The notes under the pieces were generated by a model. That model was not told the DNA's origin and did no database searches. It was given only the letters and a program-made list of their open reading frames with translations. The translations under genes were made by a program, and so were the position numbers. A stretch of DNA of 64,000 nucleotides, taken from positions 1 to 64,000 of the forward strand of contig JAKVCC010000011.1 in the NCBI GenBank assembly GCA_022448265.1. Reading direction: 5' to 3'. Shown piece by piece: positions 12,048-50,108 of the stretch (within the stretch, counting starts at the first letter, position 1; the number at the start of each line of letters is the position of its first letter). Source of the stretch: Pirellulales bacterium. Its GTDB lineage: Bacteria > Planctomycetota > Planctomycetia > Pirellulales > Lacipirellulaceae.

Positions 12048-12389
12048 TGTCGTAGATCCGATATTTCTAATTGGGGATCCGTCTGAACTGACATTTCCTA
12101 TATGGATCGGCCTGCAACCACTCCAGGCCGGGATTTCCGCCTATTGTAACACCTTCCCCCCCCCCCCCGTGTCGAGTGCATGGTGGTTTCTGGTCTTTTT
12201 TCTGAGTGCGTCCTCCCGGCTTGATTTTGCGGTCCGCCTGATCTCCAAGGCGTGTCGCAAAAGTACATGCCAAAACTGGGCAACTCTTCCTGGAAATGGG
12301 GGCTATTTGTATTGAGCCTACTCACACTGTCTAATGGTGGTCTTACTAGGTGGCTTGTCCGCACAACTCCAAAGAAAAAGAGGCGAATT

Positions 12390-15300
12390 GTGAAGGCTTT
12401 GATGTGGATTGCGCCCGCAATAGGGGTCGTGGCTGCCGGCGCTTGGGCCGACGAACCTGCACTGCCGAAAATGCGCAATTTGGCACTCTCCGCCAAGGTC
12501 ACCGCCTCGTCATCGATGGACAGGGCCCCCGCCGAGGCGGCCGTCGACGGAAAACTGTCGACGCGTTGGTTGAGTCACTCCGACGTTTTGTCGTGGCTGG
12601 ACGTTGATCTGGGCGACCCCGTGCGTATCGGAGGGGTGCACATCTATTCGGGCGCGGCCGAAACGGCCCCCATCAATAACGGATTGCTGCGCTATTGGGC
12701 AGACGGCCGGTGGAACGACATCCCCTCCGGACGGATCCACGGCAACTCCAAGACGGCGACGTGGGTGAAGTTTGCCGATACCGACGTCGTTGTCACTAGC
12801 AAGCTGCGGCTGCTGGTGGCCAAGACGCACGGCGACATCGCTCGCATCAAGGAAATCACCGTTTGGCCCTACCTCGATGAGGGAATCCCGCGGCTGGGGC
12901 AGGGTGTCGAGGGGTGGGTCCGCCCCATCGATCAAACCGACGTGCCGCTCATTTACCTCAACCAAAGCGGATTTAATCTTGATTCTCCCAAGCGTTTTAC
13001 CGCGCCCAAAACTCCAGATGGAACGCCGTTTATCGTGCGGAGAAAGGATTCCAAGCAAGCCCTCTTCTCCGGCCAGATCAGCGGCCATCGGGGTGACTTT
13101 AGTGATTTCAATCCGACCAGCGACCACGAGTACGTCGTCGAAGCAGGCGGCCATACCTCGTTTCCGTTCCGCATTGGGCCCTATTGGCTGGAGCGTGTTA
13201 CCTACCAGAATGCCATCGACTTCATGATCGATAGTCGTCATTACGTTGGCACCTCCCGCACTCCCATCGGCAACTCCATTGGCTGGCGGGACGATTGCCA
13301 TTACGCGTTTGAAGTCAACACGCTGGTGGCGCAATTCCTATCGAACCCCGCGGCCTATCTGCGGATGCCGGTGCAGATCCGATATGAGCCTCCGCCAGAA
13401 GCGACCAAGCCTGGCGAAACTCGCTTGTGGGGCGCGCTCGAGCCCTATCCGGCTGACGCACCCGACATTGTTAAGATGATTCAATGGGGGACCGATCTGG
13501 TAGTTACCCAAGGCCGCACCCACGAATTGCTCAAGGAGCAAGTCGCCTATTTCCTCTACGCCTGGCCGTGGCTGAAACAGTGGCTTCCCCAGCAGAACTA
13601 CCAGGCTGCTTCCGAATTTGCGCTGACCCACTGGGGCGACAAAGAGGCCGATAGCCGCTACGCCTGGGACAAGAGCCCCGAACACGATTTATTTGCCGTG
13701 AAAACGGTGCTGGGAACCACCAAGGGCGAGTTGCCGCCGGGGCACAGTGTGCAGCCCAACCTGCTCATGTATGAGGTAGCTCGGCGTGACGGTCGCCAGG
13801 ACGCCCAGCGATACTTTGATGCCGCCCATGCCCAGGCGACGTGGATGATTGCCCACCTCGACTGGAACAATCCGCAAACCACCAAGGGCCAGCGGATGAG
13901 CGAGCATGTCACGATGACGGGCCTGGGGCATTTTATGACCCAGTACCCGGATCGGGCGCCCCGGGGCCTGAAGCAGAAAATCACCGAGTGGGCGGACGTT
14001 ATGATCCGCCGTTCGGAAAACATGTGGGATTTCCGCCGGCTCACCGACCGAAGCGATTGGGTGCCCTCGGGCAAAGAGCCGACCATGTGGAATGAGCCCG
14101 GCAACGTGGTCGGCTTTCCGGCCTGCGCAGCGGCGGCCATGCCCGTCGTCGACGACGCCGAAGCTCGCGCGCGGCTCCGGCAGCTGGTTTATGCGCACCT
14201 CGACAATGCGTTTGGACGCAATCCCACAGGACGTCACTTCTCGTACGACGCGCCGCGGGAGGTCGAGGGCGTCGAGATCGGCTGGTATTCCGAATACGGC
14301 ACGGGGGTGGGCATGCTGGGAGATGCTCGTTTCGTCTTGGAGGCCTCCCCCAAGCGCGAACACTACCCCTACAACCCGGCGGCTGGCAATATTGGCTGGA
14401 GCGAAGGCTGGGTGAACCACAACACGGCACTGAATGCCAGTCTGGCGGCGATGGCCTATCTGGACACCGAGCTGCAGTTGACCCACCAGGACGACAAGAT
14501 CGTTTTCCAATTGCGAGCGCCGCTTAACTTTAACTATCAGAGTCAGGAGCCTGTGACGCTGCGCGCAGAGGCTAGCAGCGGCGACACCGAGACGGTGACG
14601 GTCGCCGAAGAGCATGCCTATGCCCTGAACTTCACCGGGGCGCTACCCACCGCCGTAGGGCAGCCGAAGCCTGGCGACGGAGTTTTGCAAATTGACAAAG
14701 ACGGACATGTGGAGGCGTCTTACGGGTACGGATACCTCGCGAGGCGAGGCCGAGTTGCCTTTGGACGCATGAAGGCTGCAGAGTTTTCGGACCGTTCTGC
14801 TGCGGACAAGGGCGGGGAGCCGCCTAAAATAGAATATCTGCCGATTGAAGGCGGAGCCACGGCCTCCTCTGCACTTGCCGGGCACCCGGCCCGGCAAGCG
14901 ATCGACGGCGACCTATCGACCCGCTGGATCAGCAAACCGAGTGACTCGGCCATGCTCGAAATAGATTTGGGCAGGCCGCACAGCATCTGCGGGGTCCATA
15001 TTTATTTTGACCACGGCGACACCGGGGCGATCGAGGATTTTCACTTAAGCTATGCGACGGAGACTGGGTGGCAGGATATTTCGATTTATGAGTTACAATC
15101 CGCGCGCTACGACGTCGGAAGCGGGACCACCACTGGCCACGCGCGTTCGGCAATGTGGTTTAAATTAAAAACGATTCACACCGACAAACTGCGAATCTTG
15201 ACAACCAAGACAAGGCGGGATGCCACGGCGATCCGTCAGGTGTACGTTTGGCCCTACGTCGAGGATGCCGTGGGCGGGGGGTTTCCTGGCTTGGGTCATG

Positions 15301-17153
15301 GCCTCCCGGGCGGATGGGACGGCATCACGTCACTTGACGAGGTGCCGCGCATCTATCTCAACCAAAGTGGCTTTAATCTGAACCGGCCCAAACGTTTCAC
15401 CGCGCCAACCTTGGAGGATGGCACGCGATTTATCGTACGGGAAGCAGGTGGCAGCCGGATCCTCTATAGCGGCCAGATTGCTGAGAGCCTGGGTGACTTC
15501 AGCGACTTTAATCCGGCCGGCGACCGCGAGTACGTTGTCGTGGCCGCAGGCGTGGTCTCCGCTCCCTTTCGCATCGGTCCCTACTGGCTCGAGCGGGTGA
15601 CGTATCAGAATGCGATCGACTTTATGATCGACAGTCGCCATTTTGTTGGCACTTCCCGCCAACCGATCGGCAATTCCATCGGCTGGCGCGATGATTGCCA
15701 CTTTGCCTTTGAGGTCAACACGCTAGTGGCCCAGTATCTGTCGAACCCGCGGGCGTATGAGCGGATGCCGCGGCAGGTGCGATACGAGCAGCCGCCCAAG
15801 CCTGGACTATGGGGCGTTCTCGATCCTTACGAAGAGGACGCTCCTGACGTTGTGAAAATGATCCACTGGGGAGCAGACCTGATTGTCAGCCAGCGCCGCA
15901 CCCATGAAATGCTCAAGGAGCAGTTGGCCTACTTTCTCTACGCGTGGCCTTGGTTGAAAGAGTGGTTGCCGGAGCAAAACTATCGGGTTGCAAGAGAGTT
16001 TGCCTTTAGGCACTGGGGCGACGCCACTGCAGACGGTAATTACGCATACGACAAAACTCCCGAGCACGACTTGTTTGCAGTCAAACGCGAGCTGGGTTCT
16101 ACCAAGGGCGAAATGCCTCCCGGTCACAGCTTGCAGGCCAATCTATTGATGTACGAAGTCGCCCAGCGCGAAGCGCGGGATGATGCCGAAAAGTTCTTGG
16201 GCGCCGCCCATGCCCAGGCGGCGTGGATGATTGCCCATCTGGACTGGAACGATCCGCAGACCACCAAGGGGCAGCGGATGAGCGAACATGTGACGATGAC
16301 GGGTCTGGCCCACTTTATGGCCCAGTATCCAGATCGAGCGCCGCGGGGGCTGCAGCAGAAAATTGTCGACTGGGCGGGCGTGGTGATTCGCCGTTCAGAC
16401 AATATGTGGGACTTTCGCCGCCTCACCGACGACGGTGACTGGACCCCTTCGGGGCCGCAGCCCACGATGTGGAACGAGCCGGGTAATGTGGCCGGTTTCC
16501 CAGCGTGCCTGTTTGCCGCCATCGAGGTGATCGAAGACCCGGCCATCAGGGGCCGCCTGCGGCAATTGGCCTACGCGCATCTGGACAATGTTTTTGGCCG
16601 CAATCCGACCGGGCGTCACTTTTCATTCAACGCGCCTCGTGAGGTGGAGGGCGTCGAAGTCGGCTGGTACTCCGAGTACGGTACGGGCGTCGGCACGCTG
16701 CAAAACACCCGTTTCATCCTGGAAGCGGCGCCCAAACGGCAGCATTACCCCTATCACCCCGAGGTCGGCAATATCGGCTGGTCGGAGGGTTGGGTGAACT
16801 TCAATACGGCCTTCAACGCCAGCCTGGCGGCCATGGCCCATCAGGCTACGGAAGTTCGCCTGCTGAAGCAGCCCACAGCGATTGGCGTCGAGCTGCGGGC
16901 CCCGCTAAATTTTGACTACGCCGAGCCAGAGCCGGTCAGGCTGGGGGTTGTCTCAAGCAATGGCGATGCGGAAGAAATCACCCTTGTAGAATCAAGCGAT
17001 TATGCCGAAAATTTTTTCGGAACTATTCCCATGGCGGTTGGCAAGGCCAAGTCTGGCGACGGAATCGTGCAGGTTGATCCGGGCGGAGCGATCGAAACCT
17101 CGTACGGATTGGGTTACCTGAAAAGAAGCGGCCGCCTTCAGCTGGATCCCTGA
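12390..17153 (+). CDS. GH9-like glycoside hydrolase with two complete tandem units (each F5/8C + CelD_N-like Ig + (alpha/alpha) barrel-like region)
   Basis: ORF 12252..17153; likely start GTG 12390 (upstream GAGG) or ATG 12402. YLNQSGFN...PKRFTAP, RIGPYWLERVTYQNAIDFMIDSRH, FGRNPTGRHFS and NIGWSEGWVN all occur twice. Confidence 0.8.
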   Translation: MKALMWIAPAIGVVAAGAWADEPALPKMRNLALSAKVTASSSMDRAPAEAAVDGKLSTRWLSHSDVLSWLDVDLGDPVRIGGVHIYSGAAETAPINNGLLRYWADGRWNDIPSGRIHGNSKTATWVKFADTDVVVTSKLRLLVAKTHGDIARIKEITVWPYLDEGIPRLGQGVEGWVRPIDQTDVPLIYLNQSGFNLDSPKRFTAPKTPDGTPFIVRRKDSKQALFSGQISGHRGDFSDFNPTSDHEYVVEAGGHTSFPFRIGPYWLERVTYQNAIDFMIDSRHYVGTSRTPIGNSIGWRDDCHYAFEVNTLVAQFLSNPAAYLRMPVQIRYEPPPEATKPGETRLWGALEPYPADAPDIVKMIQWGTDLVVTQGRTHELLKEQVAYFLYAWPWLKQWLPQQNYQAASEFALTHWGDKEADSRYAWDKSPEHDLFAVKTVLGTTKGELPPGHSVQPNLLMYEVARRDGRQDAQRYFDAAHAQATWMIAHLDWNNPQTTKGQRMSEHVTMTGLGHFMTQYPDRAPRGLKQKITEWADVMIRRSENMWDFRRLTDRSDWVPSGKEPTMWNEPGNVVGFPACAAAAMPVVDDAEARARLRQLVYAHLDNAFGRNPTGRHFSYDAPREVEGVEIGWYSEYGTGVGMLGDARFVLEASPKREHYPYNPAAGNIGWSEGWVNHNTALNASLAAMAYLDTELQLTHQDDKIVFQLRAPLNFNYQSQEPVTLRAEASSGDTETVTVAEEHAYALNFTGALPTAVGQPKPGDGVLQIDKDGHVEASYGYGYLARRGRVAFGRMKAAEFSDRSAADKGGEPPKIEYLPIEGGATASSALAGHPARQAIDGDLSTRWISKPSDSAMLEIDLGRPHSICGVHIYFDHGDTGAIEDFHLSYATETGWQDISIYELQSARYDVGSGTTTGHARSAMWFKLKTIHTDKLRILTTKTRRDATAIRQVYVWPYVEDAVGGGFPGLGHGLPGGWDGITSLDEVPRIYLNQSGFNLNRPKRFTAPTLEDGTRFIVREAGGSRILYSGQIAESLGDFSDFNPAGDREYVVVAAGVVSAPFRIGPYWLERVTYQNAIDFMIDSRHFVGTSRQPIGNSIGWRDDCHFAFEVNTLVAQYLSNPRAYERMPRQVRYEQPPKPGLWGVLDPYEEDAPDVVKMIHWGADLIVSQRRTHEMLKEQLAYFLYAWPWLKEWLPEQNYRVAREFAFRHWGDATADGNYAYDKTPEHDLFAVKRELGSTKGEMPPGHSLQANLLMYEVAQREARDDAEKFLGAAHAQAAWMIAHLDWNDPQTTKGQRMSEHVTMTGLAHFMAQYPDRAPRGLQQKIVDWAGVVIRRSDNMWDFRRLTDDGDWTPSGPQPTMWNEPGNVAGFPACLFAAIEVIEDPAIRGRLRQLAYAHLDNVFGRNPTGRHFSFNAPREVEGVEVGWYSEYGTGVGTLQNTRFILEAAPKRQHYPYHPEVGNIGWSEGWVNFNTAFNASLAAMAHQATEVRLLKQPTAIGVELRAPLNFDYAEPEPVRLGVVSSNGDAEEITLVESSDYAENFFGTIPMAVGKAKSGDGIVQVDPGGAIETSYGLGYLKRSGRLQLDP

Positions 17154-17237
17154 GTTGGAGTGAGTGCGATCAAGAGCTCCAACAGTACGAATCCATCAAT
17201 AAGACAAACATCAATTTTTCATTCCGAGGTAGCTTTC

Positions 17238-20200
17238 ATGCAACTGCGATCTCTAATAGTTCTGCTCGCCTTTCTCGTCACCCTCGGCAATGTACCGCTC
17301 TGTGCGGCGCGCCAAGAAGTCTCTCTTTACGCCGGGTGGAAATTTTCCCGGGGTGATCAAGAAGGCGCCCAGAAAGCTGGATTCGACGACGCCAGCTGGC
17401 AATCGGTACAGGTTCCTCACGATTGGGGAATCGCCGGCCCGTACTCCGAGGATAATTCCGTCAGTCTTTCAGAGTTCATGCCGTACGTCCGCTGGACGAA
17501 ACCTGGAGCCGGGGGCTTTTTGCCGCGGGGCATTGGTTGGTACCGCTGTGCCATTACGTTGCCTAAGGACTACGCCGGAAAACGAATCTTTGTCGAGTTT
17601 GACGGCGTCTATCGGAACAGCCAGGTCTGGGTCAACGGGCATCCGGTGGGTCAGCAGGAGAGTGGATATCTGGGGTACGTCTGCGACCTGACCGACCACG
17701 TCACGCTCGGTGCCGCCAACACCCTGGCAGTAAAGGTCGATGCGCGGAAAAAAGAAGGTTGGTGGTACGAGGGAGCCGGCATTTATCGGCCCGTCCGGTT
17801 GGTGGTCACCGATCCGTTACACGTTCCGCAATGGGGGACCTCGGTCACCACGCCAAGCATTGATGGCCAGGCAGCGACGGTAAATATGAAGACCGTCGTC
17901 CAAAACGATTCCGCGCGGGCTGCAACTTGCCGTCTCGAGACGCGCATCGTTGACAGCGAAGGCAATATCGCCGGTCGCCACGAGGCCAGCCACGCCATTG
18001 CGGCTGGCGGAAATTTTAAGTTCGATCAAGACATCCAGGTCCAGCGGCCCACGCTGTGGTCGCCGGAGAATCCGTATTTGTACAAAGTCATCTCCCAGGT
18101 CAGCCGGGACGGCGCGGTAGTGGACAACTACGAGACGCCGCTAGGCATTCGCACCTTCTTTTTTGATCCGGAACTGGGCTTCTTCCTCAACGCGAAACGG
18201 TACAAATTGAAAGGCGTCTGCAATCACGACGACATCGCCGGCCTCGGCGTGGCCGTTCCGTGGCGGATCCACCAGCAGAACATCGAATTCCTTAAAGCGG
18301 CGGGAGGTAACTTTTTGCGGAGCGCGCATAACCCGCACTCCCCAGAGACCCTCGACGCATGCGATCGATTGGGCGTGCTCGTGTGGGATGAAACCCGCTA
18401 CTTCGACGATACCGATTCGGCCTTGGAGTCCATTCGCGAGATGATCCGTCGGGACCGCAATCACCCTAGTATTGTCGTCTGGAGCATGGGCAACGAGGAA
18501 ACCAAGGAGGCCACACCTGAGGGAGTGCGAATCCTTAAGCGAATGCACGAAGTCTGCAAGAACGAGGATCCCACCCGCCCTTCGGCCATCGCCCAGGCCC
18601 ACGGCTGGAACAAGCTGGGATTCAGCGACATCGTCGACGTGATGGGCTACAACTGGCGAGCCCCCAAGGTGGCCGACAAGGATCACAAGCTGTATCCCAA
18701 GCGGGTGAAACTCGGTAGCGAGTACGGATTTCATGGTGGGGCGTGGGATCAGTATGCCCTAAGAGATTACTTTGCCGGGGCGACCATGTGGACCGGGTTC
18801 GACTACCGGGGCGAATCGAACTGGCCGAGCGTACTATGGCCAGGAGGCCTGGGCGACCTATGCCACTTTGCCAAGCCGGCGTTTTATCTTGCCCAGGCTT
18901 TGTGGACCCGCGAGCCGATGCTCTATGTTCGAGCCAAGGGCGGCTGGCGCGGAGCCGACGGCACCAACGTGGTCCTGACAGGTTTTACGAGCTGCGAAGA
19001 GCTGCAGATCTATGTGAACGACACCTTTGTTAAAACCATCAAGCCTGCGGGAGACCGGTCCTTCTGGCAAAGCAAGGGCGTGCTCCGCTACGAAGACGTC
19101 CTGTTTAGCGAAATGATGCCCTATCACCAAGACACTAGCGTGAAGGTGGTCGGACTGGTGGGCGGCATGGAAGTTTGCAGCGAAGTGATTCGCGAGCACC
19201 TTACACCGTCACATATTCGGCTCGCACCCATAACCACGACGTTACTTGCCGATGGTCAGGACGTATGCTCGATCGAAGTCGGCATCTACGACGACCACGG
19301 CAATCTCATGCAAGATGCTGATTCCTTGATCACCTTCGCGGTGGAGGGCGAAGGCGAACTGATCGGGGTCGGAAATGGCGAACAAAGCCTGAAAAAGCGG
19401 ATCGGGGGCCCGTGGGCCTCAATGGGGACGGCCAGCGAGTCCGATCAGGGCCATCAGCGTACGACTCTCAAGGGCAAATGCATTGCCATCGTAAGGGCGT
19501 CGGCCACACCCGGACAAATCCGGGTGACCGCCAGCTCTGAGTCGGGGCTCTCGGCGGAGCCTTTAATCATCCGTACCGAGCCCCTTGGCGAAAATACCGC
19601 GGCAAGCTATGCGGGCCAGCGGGCACCGCTGATGAACGTGAATACCCCTAGCAGAGGGCTCACGTTCGGTGAACTGCAGTTGTCCGCGACAACGATCGAC
19701 CCCAATCAATCGATCAGCGCAAACATCGAGATTAAGAACAACAACTGTATCTATCCGGTGGAAGTGACGCTTGACGTGGACGGGCGGCGAATCTCGGCGG
19801 AGAAGTTTGGTGTGGAGCGGAATGGCGAGCGTCGTATCACGATCCCCACTCCCAAGTTGTTTGTCGCCGGAAAGCACACTCTGGAGGTAGCCACAAACGT
19901 CAACGGGAAGCTGGCGAAAGTGTTTTCCCAGGTTGTCTCTGTCGCTTCTCAACCCGCGCGTTTGCAGGTCACCTCGATCGACGCCCCAAACTACGTCTAC
20001 GCGAAAAAGGAGGTCGCCATTCGCGCGGCGGTCAAAAACATTGGCAGCCTCGCAGCAGTTAACGAGAAGGTATCCATTAAGGTAAATGGAGTGGTGTTGA
20101 GCACCGAGTCGCCCAACCTCCAGCCCGGCGAAACCCGGGAGATTTCGTGTACCTACTTCGTGCCTGCGCAAGGCGACTTATTTCAGCTAGAAGCTGGGCA

Positions 20201-20879
20201 AGCCACGTCGGAGATGGCGGTGCTGCGACCCTTCTCAGCTGCCGAAGGCCTGGAAACCGTAGGCGTGCCGAACACGGTGTCCGGCAAGCTCGGCAAAGCA
20301 CTGAAGCTCGGCGGAGAGTCCGACTATCTCAAGATATCGCCCATCGACCTCAAGAACCGGCCCTTCACGCTGACTGCCTGGTTGAGGATCGACGAGTACA
20401 TCGAGCCGCATGATGAGTTTCCGCTCTTTAGCGGCGGCGTGCAGGAAAAGAGCAAGGGCCTGCACGTTGGCGTGCGCGTGAAGAGGCCGTGGTTCGGCTT
20501 TTACGCGAACGACGTGCAGGGCATATCCGAGTTGAGCACTGGCAAATGGTACTTCCTGGCATTCGTCCAGCAGGCGGAGCATCATGAAGCCCAAACGGGC
20601 CCCGACGAAGCCAAGGAAACCGGCACGCTTCAGAAAGCCTACTGGACCGCCAGCCGGGAGATCTACGTCGACGGCGAGCTGGATATGGCCCGCAAATGCG
20701 AACCCTACCAGGCTACGCTCGACTACGTTGGTACGTTTTGGGGAGACCTCAAGGCCAATGGCGCGCTGGACGAAATCCGCCTCTACGACCGGGCGCTCAG
20801 CGCTGAGGAAGTAAAATCGCTCTTTAGCGATGACCAGTCCATCGAAGACCGGCCCAAGCTATGGCTTAGTTTCGACTAA
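17238..20879 (+). CDS. GH2 beta-galactosidase-like enzyme with CARDB-like and C-terminal LamG-like domains
   Basis: ATG 17238 with upstream GAGG and a signal peptide; [50 protein letters not shown] (acid/base), [10 protein letters not shown] (nucleophile); C-terminal [31 protein letters not shown] and [17 protein letters not shown]. Confidence 0.9.
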   Translation: [1213 protein letters not shown]

Positions 20880-22044: not shown

Positions 22045-23397
22045 ATGCAAAGTACCATGCCATCCTCCCGCCGGAATTTTATCAAGAATGCCACAGCATT
22101 TTCGTCGGCGTTGGCGCTGCCAGGCCGCGTTTTGGGTAAAGGCCGCCAGTCGCCCAACTCCAAGCTGAATATCGCGTGCGTCGGCAATGGAGGTGTCGGC
22201 AGCTACGATACACGGAATATGCGGAAGGCGGGCGAAAACGTGGTCGCGCTTTGTGATGTGGATGACCAGCGCGCCGCTCCGACATTCAAGGAGTTTTCCA
22301 GGGCCAAGAAATACAAAGATTACCGCAAGATGCTCGACGAAATGGAATCCCAGATTGACGCTGTGACCATTTCCGTACCCGACCATATGCATTATCCGAT
22401 CGCCATGCGCGCGATGGAGGCGGGCAAGCACGTTTTTGTTCAAAAGCCGATGGCGCACACCGTGTGGGAGGTCCGCCAGATGACACTCGCCGCCCGCAAA
22501 CACAAGGTGGCGACGCAAATGGGTATCCAAGGGCATGCAGGAGAAGATACACGGGTTATCCGCGAGTGGATCGCCGATGGCGCGATTGGCAAAATCCGAG
22601 AAGTACACTGTTGGACGAATAAGCCGGCCGGCGCCTGGCGACAAGGGATCGACCGGCCCACAGAAACTCCTCCTACGCCGGCAACCCTAGACTGGAACCT
22701 CTGGCAGGGCGTCGCGCCAGAGCGTCCGTACCACCCTTCCTATTGCCCTTTCCACTGGCGAGGGTGGTGGGATTTCGGCTCGTGTGTGATTGGCGATATG
22801 GGCTGCCATGTACTAGACCATCCTTTCACGGCCTTGCAGCTTGGCCCGCCAAAGCACGTTGAGGCCTACACCACGCCGTTCAATGAAGAGACCGGCCCGC
22901 TCTCGTCCCTGGTCCACTATCACTTTCCCGCCCGAGGCGAATTACCCCCAGTGCGGTTGTCCTGGTACGACGGCGGCATCATGCCCCCCTGGCCCCAGGA
23001 GTTGGAACAAGGCCGCCGCCGTGGTAATAACGAGGGAGTCATGTTCCTCGGCGAAGGTGGCATGATTACCTGCGGCTGTTACGGCAACGACCCCCATATT
23101 ATCCCCGAGACGACCCGGAAAGCCTACAAGCTGCCGACCGCGACGATCCCGCGCTCGCCCGGACACTACCAGGAGTGGCTTGACGCCTGCAAAGGCGGAC
23201 CACCCGCCGGGGCCAACTTCGACTTTGCGGGCCCCCTCACCGAAATGGTCCAATTGGGCAATGTGGCCATTCGATCGACCGCGCGCCTGAAACAGAGCGG
23301 CTACGACCATCGGCTGGACTGGGACTCGGAAAACTTGAGAATCACCAACGTGCCGGAAGCCAATGACCTGCTCCGTCTAGAGCATCGAAAATTTTAG
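22045..23397 (+). CDS. Gfo/Idh/MocA family oxidoreductase with Tat-type signal
   Basis: SSRRNFIKNATAFSSALALPG; KLNIACVGNGGVGSYDTRNMRKAGENVVALCDVDD; VQKPMAHTVWEVRQM. Confidence 0.93.
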   Translation: MQSTMPSSRRNFIKNATAFSSALALPGRVLGKGRQSPNSKLNIACVGNGGVGSYDTRNMRKAGENVVALCDVDDQRAAPTFKEFSRAKKYKDYRKMLDEMESQIDAVTISVPDHMHYPIAMRAMEAGKHVFVQKPMAHTVWEVRQMTLAARKHKVATQMGIQGHAGEDTRVIREWIADGAIGKIREVHCWTNKPAGAWRQGIDRPTETPPTPATLDWNLWQGVAPERPYHPSYCPFHWRGWWDFGSCVIGDMGCHVLDHPFTALQLGPPKHVEAYTTPFNEETGPLSSLVHYHFPARGELPPVRLSWYDGGIMPPWPQELEQGRRRGNNEGVMFLGEGGMITCGCYGNDPHIIPETTRKAYKLPTATIPRSPGHYQEWLDACKGGPPAGANFDFAGPLTEMVQLGNVAIRSTARLKQSGYDHRLDWDSENLRITNVPEANDLLRLEHRKF

Positions 23398-23660
23398 ACT
23401 TTGCACCCCCTATGCGCGGTCCTTAGCGACTCTAGTGCCGGCTGCATCCGCATGGCCCGCCTGTTCCCGGCGAAATCAACCCGTTTCCGGAAGGAGTTGC
23501 TCCGCTTGACGCCCAACTCGCCGATGTGATCCACAGGGCCTTGTGTTAGAATTGAGAACTCATCGGGTATATGCGGTGGGAGCGGCGTGCGAGTTTCAGT
23601 CGGAACCCGGACCCGGCCATCCCGCGACTACCAGAAATTGTTTTCAGGGGAAACTACGAC

Positions 23661-24392
23661 ATGAGTATTCGAGCTATCGTCGGCGCAACTGGACTGCTGG
23701 TCGCGTCAACCGAGTTACCGACCGACCAGACAGCTGTTGCCTGGACTGGCGGGACTCCATTTGCCGAAGTGCTGCAGAAACTTCCGAAAACCGAAGATCC
23801 GGTACACCTTTTTAATGGTAAGGACCTCAGCGGCTGGGACGGCGCTGAAGGTTATTGGTCAGTTGACCAGGCGGGCATTCGCGGAGCCAACGACAAACCG
23901 TTGCCGTCGAGCACCTATTTGTTCACCCAGGAAGAGTACCGCAACTTTCGCCTACTCTTGGAAGCCAGACAAACGGTTTCGTCCCAACATTCCGACATGC
24001 ATACGGCGGTTGCCGCGCTGGGCAAACGATTCACCGACACCGGCGACAACGCGCACGGCTTTCGCGGCCCGCTATTAATGTTTTGTCATGATTGGGGCAT
24101 TTGGGACGCCTACAGGCGGAATCGGATCGCTCCCATGGGACCAGGGCCCAAAGTGGAGAACGTAGGCGATTGGAATCTGATCGAGATTCTTGTGATTGGC
24201 AATCGCATTCGTTTGGTGGCCAACGGGACACTCGTATTTGATTTCACCGACGAGCCTGATATGCTACAAGCTTCTCCGATCGGGCTGCAGTTACATTCCA
24301 ACGACCGGCCCCAGCAGCACCATTTTCGTGGCCTAGTACTCACCAAAGACCCCACAGATCAGTTGATCACATCGGGCGGGCCTACTCCTTAA
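23661..24392 (+). CDS. DUF1080 (3-keto-disaccharide hydrolase-like) domain protein
   Basis: VHLFNGKDLSGWDGAEGYWSVDQAGIRG...GPLLMFCHDWGIWD...IGLQLHSNDRPQQHHFRGLVL; ATG at 23661. Confidence 0.85.
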   Translation: MSIRAIVGATGLLVASTELPTDQTAVAWTGGTPFAEVLQKLPKTEDPVHLFNGKDLSGWDGAEGYWSVDQAGIRGANDKPLPSSTYLFTQEEYRNFRLLLEARQTVSSQHSDMHTAVAALGKRFTDTGDNAHGFRGPLLMFCHDWGIWDAYRRNRIAPMGPGPKVENVGDWNLIEILVIGNRIRLVANGTLVFDFTDEPDMLQASPIGLQLHSNDRPQQHHFRGLVLTKDPTDQLITSGGPTP

Positions 24393-24572
24393 AAGACGCA
24401 AGCAGCATCGATGGCTTCCAACCAACGAAACGGGGCAGCTTGCCTGCATAATGATCGCCGCTGGGCTAGCTCTGGCCCCCCTGTACGGAGCGGCACGCCG
24501 GGGGCATGCTATCAGCGGGCGTTTTGGGGACTGGCGGCGGACTACTCGATTCAATTGAAAGGCAGACAATCG

Positions 24573-26516
24573 ATGCGGCTTAGCAATGGGGGTACTGCTG
24601 TAATTTGGGCTGGGTGGGTGTTTCTGTGCCTACTGGGCACCGGCTGTGGAGATACGGACTCGGCCAAAACAGCAGACCCGGATGGCTCTGGGGCGCCCGC
24701 TGCTACTGCGTCGACAGACCACGCTCCATCGCTCAACGGGGTCGAACTTAAGGAACTTCCTGACGGCAGTTTTGCGCCAACAACCGTAATTCCCGTCTCC
24801 GTTTCGTCGGCTAAGGCAACACAGGCTGACCGCTTGGCCTCCAAACGGGAGGCCCACGCAGACGACTGGAAATCGGAAGTTGCCAATGCCGATGTCGCAG
24901 CCCAATTGAAAGAATTAAAAAAACTTATAGAGGCCGTCTCCCAAGGGAAGCCCCTTCAGAGCCAGGGCCTAGTATCAGCTGGATTTGTAGGGACGTCGTT
25001 GCGGCCACAACAGCTCGACATGACGAAGTTGGCCGAAGGGATCGGCGTCCGCACCGCGTCGGCCGCGGGCGGTGAAGTGGCACAAGAATATCGAGGATTG
25101 GACGGGTTTGCGGAACAGATTTCGGATCTCATCACGCCACTGCTTCCCTGTGAAGTCCGGCACATCAAGTTCAAATTGGTGCGAATCGATTCGGTAGAGG
25201 ACGTCGTGAGCACGCGTATGATCTATCAGGCATCCTTCCAGGGGGAAGGCCGCACCATTCAGCAGGCCGCCCAGTGGACGTGCCGATGGCAGCGTAGTGA
25301 TGAGCTGAATCCACCACTGAGGCTTAGCGAATTGCACGCGACCGACTATGAAGAGGCCGAGTGCACCAATCCGTCCGGCTCGCTATTTACCGACTGCACC
25401 AATTCAGTCCTGGGGGCAAACCCGTCCTACCCTCGGCAAACGCTGCCTGGTATCCCCCATTGGTCGAGTCGGATCACACGGCAATTTGTCTCCCATTTTG
25501 GCCACCACGGCATTGCTCTGGGCGACGTCAACGGAGATGGACTGGATGATCTGTATGCATGCGACACGGGCGGTCTGCCCAATCGGCTTTATCTTCAGAA
25601 CCCTGATGGGACCGCAACGGATGCCTCCGCTACTGCCGGCGTCGATATCATGGAAGATTCACTGGGGGCCTTGCTGCTAGATCTCGACAATGACGGCGAT
25701 CAAGATCTGGTGGTCGCTACCGATCCAAATATCTTGATTTACGAGAACGACGGGACTGGCGTATTTGTCCAAAAACAAAGCCACGTCGCCAATAGCGACG
25801 CCTACAGTTTGTGCGCAGCCGATTTTGACCAGGATCGCGATCTCGATGTGTACGTGTGCGGCTACAACGCGCTACGCCCCGACGCTATGGGTGGCGGTCT
25901 GCCTTTTCCGCTGCCCTACGACGACGCGAACAACGGTGGCCGCAACTTGCTATTGCGAAATGAGGGCAGTCTTACGTTTACCGATGCCACGGACGAAACT
26001 GGATTAGATGCCGACAATCGCCGCTTTAGCTTGGCCGCTTCGTGGGAAGATTTTGACAACGACGGCGACCTGGATTTATATGTCGCAAACGACTTTGGAA
26101 GAAACTGCCTTTACCGCAACGACAAGGGCAAGTTTACAAATATTGCTGCAGCCGCCGGTGTCGAAGACCAGGCGTCGGGCATGTCCGTAAGTTGGGGCGA
26201 CTTTGACCGTGACGGTTGGATGGATGTGTATGTAAGCAACATGTTTTCTGCGGCCGGCAATCGCATCACCTACCAGAGCCAGTTTTCCGAAGGTCTGCAG
26301 GAGGGCACGGTGCGCAGCTTGCGCCGTATGGCGCGCGGCAATACATTATTTCGCAACCAGGGGGATGGCACGTTTCGTGACATCAGCCTTGCTGCGGGTG
26401 TCACGTTGGGACGGTGGGCCTGGGCGTCGCGATTTGCCGACCTAAATAACGATGGCTGGCAAGACCTGGTCGTGGCAAATGGCTATGTGACCAACGAAGA
26501 TAGCGACGATTTGTGA
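24573..26516 (+). CDS. CRTAC / VCBS (FG-GAP) repeat lipoprotein, N-terminal part up to in-frame TGA (copy A)
   Basis: Lipobox LLGTGCG; repeated DxDxDGxxD motifs (GDVNGDGLDDLY, DLDNDGDQDLVV, DFDQDRDLDVYV, DFDNDGDLDLYV, DFDRDGWMDVYV); ends VTNEDSDDL-TGA at 26514-26516. Confidence 0.85.
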   Translation: MRLSNGGTAVIWAGWVFLCLLGTGCGDTDSAKTADPDGSGAPAATASTDHAPSLNGVELKELPDGSFAPTTVIPVSVSSAKATQADRLASKREAHADDWKSEVANADVAAQLKELKKLIEAVSQGKPLQSQGLVSAGFVGTSLRPQQLDMTKLAEGIGVRTASAAGGEVAQEYRGLDGFAEQISDLITPLLPCEVRHIKFKLVRIDSVEDVVSTRMIYQASFQGEGRTIQQAAQWTCRWQRSDELNPPLRLSELHATDYEEAECTNPSGSLFTDCTNSVLGANPSYPRQTLPGIPHWSSRITRQFVSHFGHHGIALGDVNGDGLDDLYACDTGGLPNRLYLQNPDGTATDASATAGVDIMEDSLGALLLDLDNDGDQDLVVATDPNILIYENDGTGVFVQKQSHVANSDAYSLCAADFDQDRDLDVYVCGYNALRPDAMGGGLPFPLPYDDANNGGRNLLLRNEGSLTFTDATDETGLDADNRRFSLAASWEDFDNDGDLDLYVANDFGRNCLYRNDKGKFTNIAAAAGVEDQASGMSVSWGDFDRDGWMDVYVSNMFSAAGNRITYQSQFSEGLQEGTVRSLRRMARGNTLFRNQGDGTFRDISLAAGVTLGRWAWASRFADLNNDGWQDLVVANGYVTNEDSDDL

Positions 26517-26547
26517 AGTTTCTTTTGGCGGCAGGTCGTGTCGCCAG
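26514..26547 (+). promoter_or_regulatory. Candidate SECIS-like hairpin immediately downstream of in-frame UGA (copy A)
   Basis: UGA 26514-26516; stem UGGCGGCA (26526-26533) pairs with UGUCGCCA (26539-26546), plus an outer U.G; apical loop GGUCG (26534-26538), 17 nt after the UGA. Confidence 0.65.
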
Positions 26548-28895
26548 CACCACGGACCGTGGATACCGAGGAGTCCAAAGATCGCTACCTGGCTGGCTGG
26601 GACGCGACGATGAAGTTGCTTCGGGAGGGCAAGTCGTTCAGCGGCCGCGAACGCAACTGCGCCTTTATCAACCATGGGAATCAGCACTTTTCAGATGTTT
26701 CGTCCGTAACCGGCCTGGACTTTCCCGAAGACGGCCGGGGACTCATCGCGGTAGACTGGGACCGTGATGGCGACCTGGATCTGTGGATCTCAAATCGCAC
26801 GGGCCCCCGTCTGCGACTGATGCGCAACAATAGCAGCCCAGGGTCGCGGCAATTTGTGCAAGTCAAATTGCAGGGCACGACGTGCAATCGGGATGCGATC
26901 GGCGCGCGGGTCGAATTGGTGCATGCAGACGCGAGCGTAGGAAAATCAATTCGCACCTTGTATGCAGGCGATGCCTACCTCTCCCAATCCAGCAAATGGT
27001 TGCATTTTGGCGTGCCGGACGAGGCAGAAATTGAGTACCTGTCGGTGAGGTGGCCCGATGGAAAAGTCGAGCGATTCCCGCTGGTCGCCCCAGGGAGACG
27101 CGTACTAGTAAAGCAAGGCACGGGCGTTGCTGAGCCAGTACTGGCATCAGGTGATCCAGTCCAGCTACAGCCCAGTAAGCCAAGAGATCCACTTCCATCT
27201 GGCCTAACCCGCACCGTACTGGTGAGCCGCCCGCCGGCACCGTTGCTACAGTACTACGATGCGCAGAACGTGCCGGTGCCCATACGTTTTGGCCAGCGGC
27301 CCGTGCTAGTGAACCTCTGGTCTGCAAACTGCGGAAACTGTCTGGCCGAAATCAAGCATTGGGCGGCGGAGCACGAGGCCCTCTCAGACCTTGGATTGGA
27401 GGTGGTCCTGCTTTCGTTAGATCGGCTGCCAGGGGCCACTGTAAAGCAGCCAGCCCTGTTACAGGGTTTGCCCGCGTCGTTCCGCTGTGGCTATGCCGAT
27501 GCAGCACTAGTCGACAAGCTCAACATCCTCCGCCGCGTTGCCGCCCATCAATCGTCACGGGTAGTTACCCCGATGAGCTTTCTGTTTGACCGCTGGGGCG
27601 GTCTAGCCGCACTATACCTCGGCAAGCTCTCCACGCCCCAACTTCTGGACGATCTACGACAATTCGGCCCCACTTCACAGACGCCCAGGGAGGCTGCGGT
27701 GCCCTTTGCCGGGCGGTGGACAGCTCCTCCCCGCAATCTGCTCCTGCGTTCGATTGCCGACGTATTTCGCGACCATGGGTACGAGGACGACTATCTTCGC
27801 ATTCGGCAGTTTGAGGTCGCACAACTGGCACAGCGGCGGTCCGCCGCCCCTACCGGCCAGGGGCCACGGGACATCGATACCCGGTTTGCCGAGGCGTGTT
27901 TCGGGGTTGCCCTGGAACTGCAAACACATGGGCAGCTAAAACTATGTATCGAATATTTTAAAGTCGGGTTGGGCGCAACCCCAGAAGTTGCCAATGCACA
28001 ATATTACCTGGCCCTGGCCTACGAGAAGGATGGCCAGCAAACCAAAGCAGTCGAGCATCTGCAACTGTGCCTCCAATATGACCCAGGATATACCAAGGCT
28101 AGTCTCAGGTTGGCTGGTCTATTAGCAGGAAGCGACCAGCAGACCAAATCGGTCACTGTGCTTCGTCAAACGACACAGGCCGCACCGGACAGCCCCGAGG
28201 CACATTTCCAACTCGGCATGGCGTTGGTTGCAAATGGGAAGGCCGAGGAAGCGCTGCAATCGTTTTTGCGTGCTGTCGAGCTGAGGCCTGATCACGGAAA
28301 AGCTCTGGCAAACGCGGCCGTGCTGCTGGCACGCGGGCAAGAATTTAGCCAAGCTCGCGAACTGTTTGAACGGGCCTTAGAGATACCGCCCCGCCGGGCT
28401 GAAGTCCTACTGGGCTACGGAGGGGTCTTGATGGAGTTGGAGAAGACTGCTCGTGCGATCGAAGTCTTTAATGAAATTGTCGAGCAGCATCCCAAACGTG
28501 CCCGAGTGCATGTGGCCCTGGCCAACGCGCTACAGCGGGATGGGCATTACCTAGAGGCGGCAGATCATCTCGAGGTCGCCGTACAACTCAAACCACACAA
28601 TGCGACCTCCCTGCTGCGACTCGCTTGGCTGCGGGCAACGGCACCGGAGGCAGCTGCGCGCAACGGCAAGCAGGCATTGCAGATCGCCGAAAAGTTGCAA
28701 GATGCGACCAGTGGCAAACATCCGAAGGTTTGGGACACAATGGCTGTGGCCCATGCGGAGTTAGGCGATTTTGACGCCGCGGTTGCCACTGCCCAGCGCG
28801 CAGTCGAAATCCTGGGAGACTCAAATCCAGAACTTGTGAGCAAAATTCGCAAACGGATCGAGGGATATAAGGCCGAAGTCCCCTACCGCGAGTAG
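26538..28895 (+). CDS. ASPIC/UnbV + thioredoxin-like + TPR part of copy A, same frame as the upstream ORF beyond the TGA
   Basis: FSGRERNCAFINHGN...DWDRDGDLDLWISNRTGPRLRLMRN...NRDAIGARVELV (ASPIC/UnbV); NLWSANCGNCLAEIKHW (CxxC thioredoxin-like); TPR repeats; GTG at 26538 is in the upstream ORF's reading frame. Confidence 0.85.
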   Translation: MSPAPRTVDTEESKDRYLAGWDATMKLLREGKSFSGRERNCAFINHGNQHFSDVSSVTGLDFPEDGRGLIAVDWDRDGDLDLWISNRTGPRLRLMRNNSSPGSRQFVQVKLQGTTCNRDAIGARVELVHADASVGKSIRTLYAGDAYLSQSSKWLHFGVPDEAEIEYLSVRWPDGKVERFPLVAPGRRVLVKQGTGVAEPVLASGDPVQLQPSKPRDPLPSGLTRTVLVSRPPAPLLQYYDAQNVPVPIRFGQRPVLVNLWSANCGNCLAEIKHWAAEHEALSDLGLEVVLLSLDRLPGATVKQPALLQGLPASFRCGYADAALVDKLNILRRVAAHQSSRVVTPMSFLFDRWGGLAALYLGKLSTPQLLDDLRQFGPTSQTPREAAVPFAGRWTAPPRNLLLRSIADVFRDHGYEDDYLRIRQFEVAQLAQRRSAAPTGQGPRDIDTRFAEACFGVALELQTHGQLKLCIEYFKVGLGATPEVANAQYYLALAYEKDGQQTKAVEHLQLCLQYDPGYTKASLRLAGLLAGSDQQTKSVTVLRQTTQAAPDSPEAHFQLGMALVANGKAEEALQSFLRAVELRPDHGKALANAAVLLARGQEFSQARELFERALEIPPRRAEVLLGYGGVLMELEKTARAIEVFNEIVEQHPKRARVHVALANALQRDGHYLEAADHLEVAVQLKPHNATSLLRLAWLRATAPEAAARNGKQALQIAEKLQDATSGKHPKVWDTMAVAHAELGDFDAAVATAQRAVEILGDSNPELVSKIRKRIEGYKAEVPYRE

Positions 28896-46139: not shown

Positions 46140-47999
46140 TCAATCGCTGGTTAATTCCTCAAGAAGCGCTTCCTGCGGCTCAACGTCAAGCCCTTGCTTT
46201 CGCAGTTTGGGCAGTCCGATTTGTTGGGCTCCAGCGCGAAATTGACGTCGATAACGCTCGTCGGCATACGGCTCTCCTTGGAGGGTCGCTGCCTGCTTCA
46301 GGTGTTTAATCCCCGTCTTAATTTCACCGCGAATCGCACAATTCATGGCAAATTCAAAATGTGTCGGGGCGTCGTCAGGCTCCAACTCCAAGGCGCGGGC
46401 CAACTGTGTCTTCGCCTCGTCGATGCGCCCGAGGCGCGAAAGCGTCTTGCCTAATTCTAACCACGTGGGGTGATCGTTGGGCGCCGACTCAGCCGCCAGG
46501 CTGAGATGCATGACCGCAGCTTCAAAGTCCTTCAATAGACGAAAGGTCACACCCAGGTTGAAGTGGGCCGAAGCAAAATCGGGCTTGGCTTCAACGGCCC
46601 GCAAATAGAGCGCAGCGGCAATCCGGTGCTGTTCGGCGCGCGTGTGTTGCTGGGCCAATCCATACAGCAACAAGTGGTAATCCGAGTCTTGCGCAAACAC
46701 ATCCTCAAAGCGATTGGTGAATTCTAGTGTTTCTTTGACCCAACCCTGATCCATCATGGCCATCGCGAGCGAGGTAGACCGATGCCGTGTGGTTGAGCCG
46801 GACCACTTGCCTGGGAATAGCGGTTTCAGACGTCGCCGTGTGGCAGGCGGCAAGTCAACGGACTGGACATCTTCGAGCAATTGTTCCAGATCCAACGCCC
46901 CCTTATAAATAACCGAAAGCCTGCCCCGCTCGTCAATCAAAAAGCTGCAGGGCACCGGTAGCTGGTCGTGCAAGTCAAATATCTCATCATGGATTACTTG
47001 GAGCTGGTCCTCCAGTTTGGCGGTGCTGAACCGGGCGGGTTCCTTCCAAAGGTAATCGCGTAGCACCTGGTCAGCTTCTGCCCGCTCTTTAGCAGGATCG
47101 TTCGTGCAAAACAGCTGGACACGAAGCGAGTGTTTCTCGAAGGCCACGCTGCTGGTCCCCATCTCTTTGAGCTCACGCCGGCACGTGAGGCATTTGGTAT
47201 TCCAAAGCGTCACCAGCGTGGGCCCCTTACGTACCCCTCGGCCGTCCGAGGTATTGTTCATTCCATCCAAAGCAGGAATGGGCATGGGATAGTCCAACAC
47301 GGTCCGCATGCTCGTCACCTTCTTCGCAGCGCTAGCTACGGCAGCCTGTGAGCCCACCATCGACTCGGGCCGGGGCGCAGCAGTTGACGCGGCAGTCGCT
47401 GCAACTACTGGCGGATGCATCTCCCGGATGATGTAACGCCCGCCGGCTGCCAGAGAAGAAACTTCTTGCGCATTTCCGCTGGGCCAGCGAATCGAGAGGC
47501 CGTCGAAATGCTCATCAGCGCCGAGTCCGAAATGCAGCCACTTGGTTCTTTGCGATAAGTATCCGTCTCCAGCGCGCAACGTGCGCAAGATTTTATGTGT
47601 TCCCTCTCCATTGCGAACGCTAAGCGTTACGCGAGCCCCCACGGCATCTCGATTGGAATCGGTCCCCTCCAGACGCACCTGGATCGACCGGTTCGCACCG
47701 CGGTACTGGTTGCGAAGAAAACGTATCTGGGGGCCGCTTCTATTCAACACGCAGAGATCCAGATCGCCATCCTGATCCCAATCCAGCGGGACCGCTGCCC
47801 GCCCATCATCCGGAAAATCAAGTCCTGTGACAGCCGACACGTCGGCGAATTTTCCGTTGCCCATGTTCAAAAAGCAACAATTGCGTTCGCGACCACTAAA
47901 CGAACCACCGTTGCGCAAAAGCTCTTGCAGGACTTGGGTCAACCCGCGTTCGGCTCCCATCCTCCACCGGCCTTGAACAGACCCACTCGTAAGCGGCAC
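46140..47999 (-). CDS. ASPIC/UnbV + thioredoxin-like + TPR part of copy B, same frame as ORF 48021..50108
   Basis: FSGRERNCCFLNMGN...DWDQDGDLDLCVLNRSGPQIRFLRN...NRDAVGARVTLS; TLWNTKCLTCRRELKEM (CxxC); TPR repeats; GTG start at 47999 lies 8 codons after the TGA in the same frame. Confidence 0.85.
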   Translation of the reverse strand: MPLTSGSVQGRWRMGAERGLTQVLQELLRNGGSFSGRERNCCFLNMGNGKFADVSAVTGLDFPDDGRAAVPLDWDQDGDLDLCVLNRSGPQIRFLRNQYRGANRSIQVRLEGTDSNRDAVGARVTLSVRNGEGTHKILRTLRAGDGYLSQRTKWLHFGLGADEHFDGLSIRWPSGNAQEVSSLAAGGRYIIREMHPPVVAATAASTAAPRPESMVGSQAAVASAAKKVTSMRTVLDYPMPIPALDGMNNTSDGRGVRKGPTLVTLWNTKCLTCRRELKEMGTSSVAFEKHSLRVQLFCTNDPAKERAEADQVLRDYLWKEPARFSTAKLEDQLQVIHDEIFDLHDQLPVPCSFLIDERGRLSVIYKGALDLEQLLEDVQSVDLPPATRRRLKPLFPGKWSGSTTRHRSTSLAMAMMDQGWVKETLEFTNRFEDVFAQDSDYHLLLYGLAQQHTRAEQHRIAAALYLRAVEAKPDFASAHFNLGVTFRLLKDFEAAVMHLSLAAESAPNDHPTWLELGKTLSRLGRIDEAKTQLARALELEPDDAPTHFEFAMNCAIRGEIKTGIKHLKQAATLQGEPYADERYRRQFRAGAQQIGLPKLRKQGLDVEPQEALLEELTSD

Positions 48000-48023
48000 G
48001 ACCTGCCGCCAAAAGAAACTTCA
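47992..48023 (-). promoter_or_regulatory. Candidate SECIS-like hairpin immediately downstream of in-frame UGA (copy B)
   Basis: Minus strand UGA 48023-48021; GGCGGCA (48010-48004) pairs with UGCCGCU (47998-47992); loop GGUCG (48003-47999), 17 nt after the UGA. Confidence 0.65.
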
Positions 48024-50108
48024 CAAATCTTTGGTGTCTGTGTTGGTGACGTACCCGTTCGCCACATACAGGTCGTCCCACCCGTCATTATTCCAGTCGC
48101 CGGAGACGGTCGACCACGCCCAGCGGGCGTGCTCGACGTGTGCGTCGCCGCTGACTTCCAAAAACCGACCGTCTCCAAGGTTTTTGTACAGCGTGTTTCC
48201 TTTGGCAAATCGATTGAGCAGCGCCCCGATCTCCGCGCCCGTTTCTTTTAGAAAATTGAGCTGCGTGGTGATGCGGCGTCCGGCCGATGAAAACATATTC
48301 GCCACCATCAGATCCATCCGTCCGTCGCGGTCATAATCGAGCCAGTCCACCGACATACCACCGCCATAGTCTACCGTCCCTGACAGCTCGGCAATTTCGG
48401 TAAAGCGCCCCCCGTCGTTGCGGTAGAGACAATTTTGGCCATAGTCGTTGGCCACGTAGAGGTCCTGGTCACCATCATCGTCGAAATCTTCCCAGGCGGC
48501 CGCCAAGCTGTGGCGGCGGTTGTTTACATCCAGACCCGACTCGACAGTTACATCGGTGAATTTCCAGTCGGCAGGAGTGATGTCGTTTTGAAACAGAACA
48601 TTGGCGCCGCCATCATTAGCATTGTAATAAATGAATTCCGGACGTTCTTCATCGGGGCGCGCGCGATGGTCGGCGAACGCAATGGTTAAATAGATGTCCA
48701 AGTCGCCGTCCGAATCGTAGTCTGCCGCAGATAATCCCTTGACATTGCGGTCGGCAAACGGAAGCTTGTTTCGCACCTCGAAATGGCCGCTGCCATCGTT
48801 CTCCATCACCAGCATGTACCGCGACGAAGTGGCCAAAACAAGATCTTGGTCACCATCATTGTCGAGATCGATCAACAGCGCACTGGAAGTCTGGTCCTTC
48901 CAATCGGTGCGCGATTCAGCCGAAACATCTCGCACAGTGCCGTCTTCCATCTGCAGAAAAAGGCGATTTGGCAGCCCGGCCGGCTGGCATACGTACAGAT
49001 CGTCGCGATGGTCGCCATTGACGTCGCCCACGGCAATTCCAAACTCAGCAAACAGGTACATTCCATCTACGGTGTCGACGCGCCGCAGCCAATGATTGAG
49101 GCCGGGCACAAGCTGTGATTGGTAGCTGGAACAGCTTCCGAAGACCGCAGCCGAGTCGTCTTGAAACCAGCCACCGCTTCCGCCGGGTGAATCGATATAC
49201 TGCACCTCCTCCACATCGGCCGCCTCAAGGGTCAATAAATACATGCCCTGCTGCGGAATTTCTTTCCAACGGCAGTTCCAGGTGGCGTGGTACGAGCCCC
49301 TGCGCCCGGCATGCGACCAAAACAGGGCAACGATGTGCTGGGTCGCGGTGGTGCGGGTCTCCCCAGTCTGCCCATCCCCGGCCGCGCCATCTGACTTGAT
49401 TTCAATTGTTTTTACGTGGGTCCGCGTCGTGGCCCCACTCGGAAACCACTCGACAATCGCCCCAAAGACTTGTGAAAACCGCGTCTTCCCCCGCGCCTCG
49501 CCGCCGGCAACCACGGTGGGATGCCGCACTTCCAGCTGGGGTGCCTGAAAAACGACCTGGCCGCCAGCGGCATAAAGATCGCCCGCTGTGAATTCTGGAT
49601 CGACCCATTCAAACGCTTGCAGCTGCTCAGCGCCGGCACCACTGGCTACGGCTGTCGCAATCTCGTCTAGCTGTTTTTGAACGCGCTGGGAAATCACCTC
49701 GGAGTCCCAGCCGTCTTTTTTGGGATCGATCAGATCACGGCCCTTTCGATGGCGCTCGTCGATCAATTTTGAGGGAACATGGAACACGGCCTGTGATACT
49801 TCCGAAGCTTCACAAGCTTCGAGAGCTTTCGTCGGCGCACCGGCTAATTGATGGGAGGACTCAGAACTTGGATCTGCAGGTTGCGCACCCGAATAAACAA
49901 CTGGCGGTTCGCCGCCGCCCGACCCAGGAGCATCGCCGTCCGGCGGTGGGCCACACGCGGTCAACATAATCGCCGCGCCACACAGCAGTAAGGCAAGCGG
50001 GCCCACACATATCGCCTGACACCGCTCGAGCCAAAAGGCCCGATTTCTGGGCGCAGCGGGCGGAATGTTTGTCTGGACGGATATCGACATGGTGCGGCGA
50101 TCCCTCAC
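48021..50108 (-). CDS. CRTAC / VCBS repeat lipoprotein, N-terminal part up to in-frame TGA (copy B)
   Basis: Lipobox MLTAC; GDVNGDHRDDLYVC, DLDNDGDQDLVL, DYDSDGDLDIYL, DFDDDGDQDLYV, DYDRDGRMDLMV; ends VTNTDTKDL-TGA at 48023-48021. Confidence 0.87.
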   Translation of the reverse strand: MRDRRTMSISVQTNIPPAAPRNRAFWLERCQAICVGPLALLLCGAAIMLTACGPPPDGDAPGSGGGEPPVVYSGAQPADPSSESSHQLAGAPTKALEACEASEVSQAVFHVPSKLIDERHRKGRDLIDPKKDGWDSEVISQRVQKQLDEIATAVASGAGAEQLQAFEWVDPEFTAGDLYAAGGQVVFQAPQLEVRHPTVVAGGEARGKTRFSQVFGAIVEWFPSGATTRTHVKTIEIKSDGAAGDGQTGETRTTATQHIVALFWSHAGRRGSYHATWNCRWKEIPQQGMYLLTLEAADVEEVQYIDSPGGSGGWFQDDSAAVFGSCSSYQSQLVPGLNHWLRRVDTVDGMYLFAEFGIAVGDVNGDHRDDLYVCQPAGLPNRLFLQMEDGTVRDVSAESRTDWKDQTSSALLIDLDNDGDQDLVLATSSRYMLVMENDGSGHFEVRNKLPFADRNVKGLSAADYDSDGDLDIYLTIAFADHRARPDEERPEFIYYNANDGGANVLFQNDITPADWKFTDVTVESGLDVNNRRHSLAAAWEDFDDDGDQDLYVANDYGQNCLYRNDGGRFTEIAELSGTVDYGGGMSVDWLDYDRDGRMDLMVANMFSSAGRRITTQLNFLKETGAEIGALLNRFAKGNTLYKNLGDGRFLEVSGDAHVEHARWAWSTVSGDWNNDGWDDLYVANGYVTNTDTKDL

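Follow-up and report, generated by a model that had tools for sequence, protein, structure and literature searches.

The question raised by gene A of a Pirellulales bacterium is whether the UGA codon in its middle ends a protein or is read as selenocysteine (Sec). The gene lies in the first 64,000 nucleotides of contig JAKVCC010000011.1 (assembly GCA_022448265.1), the whole of which is called the window here, and was originally predicted to be a single gene cut in two by an in-frame TGA. Two open reading frames (ORFs), 24411-26516 on the plus strand, which ends in TGA, and 26538-28895, share one reading frame, and the frame from 24393 to 28895 (+) is indeed open apart from a sole TGA at 26514-26516, with 707 and 792 codons on its two sides. 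Read from the ATG at 24573 the product has 1440 residues, the approximate size predicted for the lipoprotein, and its lipoprotein signal is MRLSNGGTAVIWAGWVFLCLLGTGC. The sequence evidence argues that this UGA almost certainly directs the insertion of Sec, and A is very probably one selenoprotein, a propeller lipoprotein with a fused thioredoxin domain, this being the best explanation of the findings as a whole.

A split gene and its paralogue

The predicted domain make-up of A (VCBS-type repeats, ASPIC/UnbV, a CGNC thioredoxin-like domain and TPRs) was recovered, and FG-GAP repeats flank the TGA. Pfam places FG-GAP repeats upstream of this codon, and FG-GAP, UnbV_ASPIC and TPRs downstream of it; the UnbV_ASPIC match (PF07593, 3.4e-16) follows the FG-GAP repeats and scores 59.3 bits against a cut-off of 23.4. 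A second gene of the window, paralogue B (46140-50090, minus strand), contains the same interruption, as had been claimed, with the TGA at 48023-48021 in the same motif. A strict DNA pattern of the UGA site occurs at just two places in the 3.64 Mb genome, which are A and B. The thioredoxin motif of B differs and reads WNTKCLTC.

The UGA column in homologues

Among 118 related genomes a single TGA is found in every close homologue (46-60% identity) whose sequence covers the site, and a genome may hold up to about ten copies. Phylum-wide, a homologue is found in 158 of 392 genomes, with one TGA in most, among the matches listed. A scan of public genomes, for which the query was a single sequence and the site column was assigned by profile alignment, adds Verrucomicrobia (Akkermansiaceae, Roseibacillus) and metagenome-assembled genomes (MAGs) of Acidobacteriota. 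In the profile-aligned homologues TGA stands at the column in 161 hits, equivalent to 143 distinct sites in Planctomycetes, Verrucomicrobia, Acidobacteriota and other phyla, and neither TAA nor TAG was found there. A nonsense mutation, a pseudogene or a sequencing error would not be expected to place the same codon in 143 distinct sites of many assemblies with long frames on both sides, and the chance of such an origin is negligible; the earlier judgement that nonsense decay is unlikely is borne out by this conservation.

A sense codon stands at the site, with the frame open across it, in 23 homologues. Ten hits, nine of them distinct, have cysteine in the column; they belong to a distant subfamily and include the paralogue on contig C16 of the same genome. 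Glu, Asp, Gln, Ala, Asn or Gly is found in 14 hits, and Trp and Arg were never seen among these aligned sense residues. The alignment proposed with the original prediction as a check on the Sec reading gives TGA itself in close homologues and Cys in distant ones.

The UGA-containing proteins fall into subfamily I (DL-U-SFFWRQVV), subfamily II (PDG-U-xC-xW), which has no thioredoxin domain, and subfamily III (DL-U-SxFWRTVV). Several members of subfamily II (L053, L054, L093, L095 and L145) have a U-x-C motif and a downstream hairpin that is shifted by 3 nt (GGCUGU-CGUGUC-ACAGCC). In one homologue, L143 (G137:C78), three TGA codons lie within about 26 residues near the homologous site in a frame otherwise open into a CxxC thioredoxin domain, possibly a protein with multiple Sec residues or an assembly problem. 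Gene copies can also be clustered on one contig, as is seen for L078-L079 (G097:C14) and for L069, L080 and L082 (G117:C105).

Selenocysteine machinery and the meaning of UGA

The search for selA, selB, selC and selD, a further check that had been suggested, found all four on contig C19, where the genes for tRNA-Sec, a NADH dehydrogenase-SelD fusion, SelB and SelA lie side by side. The tRNA-Sec gene (selC) scores 70.6 bits and has a UCA anticodon, selB scores 353 bits and selA 528.6 bits. The selD gene, which was recognised by reading its ORF (L020, 8849-11053, minus strand), is fused to a NADH dehydrogenase-like domain. Across the 118 relatives the family tracks selA, which is present in 23 of 26 genomes with the family and in 24 of 92 without it (p 1e-8). 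Two of the three genomes that have the family without selA carry tRNA-Sec, and the third is a MAG that is 81% complete.

That a stop codon is read as sense could also mean that UGA is reassigned throughout the genome, for example to Trp. UGA still terminates, however: of 22 large ORFs in the window seven, B among them, have TGA as their stop codon, and the genome contains prfB (release factor 2; 465.8 bits), leaving genome-wide reassignment with a vanishingly small probability.

The hairpin downstream of the UGA

A putative selenocysteine insertion sequence (SECIS) hairpin of the bacterial type is found downstream of the UGA in the expected place. In A it has a GGUC-type loop 17 nt after the UGA, and both loop and spacing agree with the published bacterial SECIS rule (PMC13188914). 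The codons round the UGA are frozen beyond what the protein would need: at the 64 sites of subfamilies I and III, TTG is kept in 64/64, CAG in 55/55, GTG in 59/59 and TCG in 55/55, against background frequencies of 0.24-0.59. All six base pairs are formed in 56 of these 64 sites compared with 3.3% under synonymous resampling. They are likewise formed in 123 of the 143 UGA sites but in none of the 23 sense-codon homologues (Fisher 1e-16); 13 of the remaining 20 UGA sites have five pairs, and in seven a different hairpin falls within the spacing window. An automated bacterial SECIS (bSECIS) rule is passed by 117 of 143 UGA sites and by 7 of the 23 others.

The pairs themselves vary together. Columns 30 and 40 hold A-U in 69 sites, G-U in 42, G-C in 21 and C-G in 5, with no A-C. 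Columns 32 and 38 hold A-U in 109 and G-C in 21, the G-C double changes replacing two amino acids (Q by R and V by A), and columns 28 and 42 hold C-G in 124 and A-U in 9. The hairpin of B has a G-C pair where that of A has a G-U pair. RNAalifold, run on all subfamilies together, returned a weak, register-shifted helix, probably because the hairpin of subfamily II is shifted, and the named structure was counted instead.

These data bear on two further explanations of the split frame. The first is read-through of a programmed stop, in which a near-cognate tRNA inserts an ordinary residue (Trp, Arg or Cys) or regulation decides whether the short or the long product is made. The first half could stand alone as a truncated propeller lipoprotein, and the TTG-TGA-AGY frozen here recalls conserved 3' contexts known to promote read-through. 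This does not account for a covarying hairpin with bacterial SECIS loop and spacing that is gone when the UGA is gone, nor for a family that tracks selA and in which the aligned sense residues are never Trp or Arg, and such read-through is judged improbable. The second is that two proteins are made, with a stop at the TGA and a restart at GTG 26538. The restart codon is GTG in 108 of the 143 sites, but in 32 it is GCG, CTG, GGG or ACG and no start codon; moreover, the short stretch from TGA to GTG is conserved at the protein level, and the 23 sense-codon homologues are open across the site. Since the GTG sits within the hairpin, its freezing is explained without a restart, and the two-protein arrangement is less probable still.

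Predicted structure and coupling to the thioredoxin domain

An AlphaFold2 model of 745 residues (predicted local distance difference test 88.8, predicted template modelling score 0.90) has murine CRTAC1 (9etn) as its best structural match in the PDB (E 1e-26, TMt 0.70), while its C terminus matches ResA (1st9, TMt 0.80) and TlpA. In this predicted structure the Sec is residue 351 and begins a short propeller helix. The thioredoxin CxxC is kept in 110 of 111 Sec homologues with enough sequence and in none of ten homologues with Glu, Asp, Gln or Ala, in which thioredoxin-like sequence is still there. An unbiased comparison of columns between Sec and non-Sec homologues ranked Sec 351, Cys 626, Cys 623 and Glu 629 at the top, and Glu 629 corresponds to the active-site Glu of ResA. 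The coupling of Sec and CxxC stems from few events on the tree and is suggestive, not statistically secure. Where the non-Cys replacements occur together with a thioredoxin-like domain they are confined to one planctomycete family that has lost the CxxC, and these Glu/Asp/Gln/Ala paralogues, with the CxxC gone, look like proteins of changed function. The paralogues concerned are L130-L139 and L149 of family f51, where the two losses, of Sec and of the CxxC, go hand in hand.

It is proposed that SelB, bound to the SECIS hairpin, would deliver Sec-tRNA-Sec at UGA 26514-26516 and that the ribosome would read on to give the lipoprotein of 1440 residues. The lipoprotein signal would then lead to export to the cell surface or the periplasm, where the protein is predicted to fold into a CRTAC1-like FG-GAP propeller with an ASPIC/UnbV domain, the Sec opening a short helix of the propeller. 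The TlpA/ResA-like domain would probably reduce or resolve the oxidised selenol after each turnover, a recycling suggested because Sec, CxxC and the active-site Glu are conserved jointly. The result would be a self-contained extracytoplasmic selenol oxidoreductase. That the fused thioredoxin domain is the relay partner of the Sec is somewhat favoured, and the wider picture of multi-copy giant extracytoplasmic selenoenzymes, in which Sec is reactive in a CRTAC1-like propeller and the fused thioredoxin is its dedicated reductant, stands at about even odds.

As Glu and Asp occur in place of Sec, a role of the Sec as metal ligand also has to be considered; A would then be a selenoprotein in which Sec is a ligand or a structural residue and not a redox centre recycled by thioredoxin. 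Glu, Asp, Gln and Asn substitute for Sec in paralogues as they do at ligand positions, and the propeller is rich in DxDxDG metal sites. The replacement coincides, however, with a loss confined to the CxxC and the active-site Glu of the thioredoxin domain, and subfamily II, without a thioredoxin domain, has U-x-C instead, which makes a ligand or structural role unlikely, if far from negligible.

Several observations weigh against the account of A as a Sec enzyme with its own reductant. The total folding energy 3' of the UGA, compared with synonymous shuffles, was no lower than in control windows; for lack of such a signal position-specific pairing was tested, and the support for the SECIS is positional. 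The counts of hairpins and homologues given above ignore shared ancestry. The site is occupied in some homologues by Glu, Asp, Gln, Ala or Asn and not by Cys, a replacement that is unusual for a purely catalytic Sec, and in one genome with the family, the 81% complete MAG G069, neither selA nor a convincing tRNA-Sec was found. As for the thioredoxin domain, L146 has the UGA without the CxxC, and on the tree the Sec-CxxC link amounts to five label changes and one to three independent pairs. With these points included, the Sec reading of the original prediction is strongly supported by the sel genes, the TGA/Cys alignment and the SECIS, though it had overlooked the hairpin, the Sec-CxxC coupling and the homologues with Glu, Asp, Gln, Ala or Asn.

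Relation to known proteins

Among the closest known proteins is CRTAC1 of the ASPIC/UnbV proteins (PF07593 with FG-GAP), with which A shares the same propeller plus ASPIC/UnbV; murine CRTAC1 (9etn, E 5e-18) is also the only sequence match of an A-type protein in the PDB. What sets A apart is the Sec in its propeller, together with TPRs and a fused TlpA/ResA-like domain. The genome encodes further ASPIC proteins (C3:68922, C16:1878 and C10:96493), which have neither the motif nor the UGA. TlpA/ResA-like domains, including those of UGC-containing TlpA selenoproteins and ResA-like WAxxUGC proteins (NF041054), have a CxxC and a following Glu in common with A, but the thioredoxin motif of A keeps two Cys, and its Sec lies about 270 residues off in another fold. 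A matches NF041054 weakly on its thioredoxin domain (44 bits against a cut-off of 300), with a Cys-Cys motif. The SECIS of E. coli fdhF has a GGUC-type loop. A resembles it in having such an apical loop soon after the UGA and differs in the stem, whose sequence is set by the protein motif WRQVVS; subfamilies II and III include variant hairpins.

An inventory of prokaryotic selenoprotein families from 2026 (Table 1 of PMC13188914), which has 119 entries and includes those of Haft and Tolstoy 2025, contains no FG-GAP, VCBS, CRTAC or ASPIC/UnbV family, in keeping with the earlier remark that this was not a known selenoprotein family. No NCBIfam model fits the family, and among the papers searched no relevant one links a selenoprotein to UnbV, CRTAC, VCBS or FG-GAP. 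A and its relatives apparently form a new and unusually widespread selenoprotein family of unusual fold and size. If they are the selenoenzymes proposed above, this would be the first selenium chemistry assigned to the FG-GAP/ASPIC fold. An unexpected fold would join a selenoprotein list dominated by thioredoxin-like proteins. For bacterial ASPIC/UnbV proteins the family offers a redox chemistry that can be put to the test, and it suggests what selenium may serve in Planctomycetes and Verrucomicrobia; such enzymes may even be one of the chief reasons for which the selenium machinery is kept there. As annotation based on stop codons would split such genes at the UGA, common environmental bacteria are likely to have large surface proteins that are annotated wrongly.

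Features of the window

Table 1. Positions in the window of the features of gene A and of its paralogue B
Feature	Coordinates	Strand	Basis
Putative selenoprotein A, one read-through coding sequence, lipoprotein	24573..28895	+	continuous frame with one TGA
Predicted lipoprotein signal peptide, lipobox LLGTGC	24573..24647	+	sequence; inference
FG-GAP/VCBS beta-propeller, spans the UGA	25509..26786	+	Pfam PF13517/PF01839; AlphaFold2 model
TGA probably read as Sec, DL-U-SFFWRQVV	26514..26516	+	TGA at all 143 distinct UGA-type sites; Cys in distant paralogues
Putative SECIS hairpin, stem 26525-26533 with 26539-26547, loop GGUCG 26534-26538	26525..26547	+	covariation, synonymous constraint
ASPIC/UnbV domain PF07593	26895..27104	+	Pfam
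TlpA/ResA-like thioredoxin domain, CGNC 27330-27341, active-site Glu as model residue 629	27210..27668	+	fold match; CxxC coupled to Sec
TPR repeats	27918..28799	+	Pfam
Putative selenoprotein B, paralogue with the same UGA and SECIS, terminated by an ordinary TGA stop	46140..50090	-	sequence
TGA (putative Sec) of paralogue B, motif DL-TGA-SFFWRQVV	48021..48023	-	sequence
Putative SECIS core of B, GCGGCA-GGUCG-UGCCGC, bounds approximate	47992..48010	-	hairpin comparison

A third long frame split by TGA (12150-20876, plus strand) was considered as a recoding candidate and rejected, as it consists of two adjacent ordinary genes that end and start in frame. Directly upstream of A and in the same direction lie genes for a Gfo/Idh/MocA oxidoreductase and a 3-keto-disaccharide hydrolase (22045-24392, plus strand).

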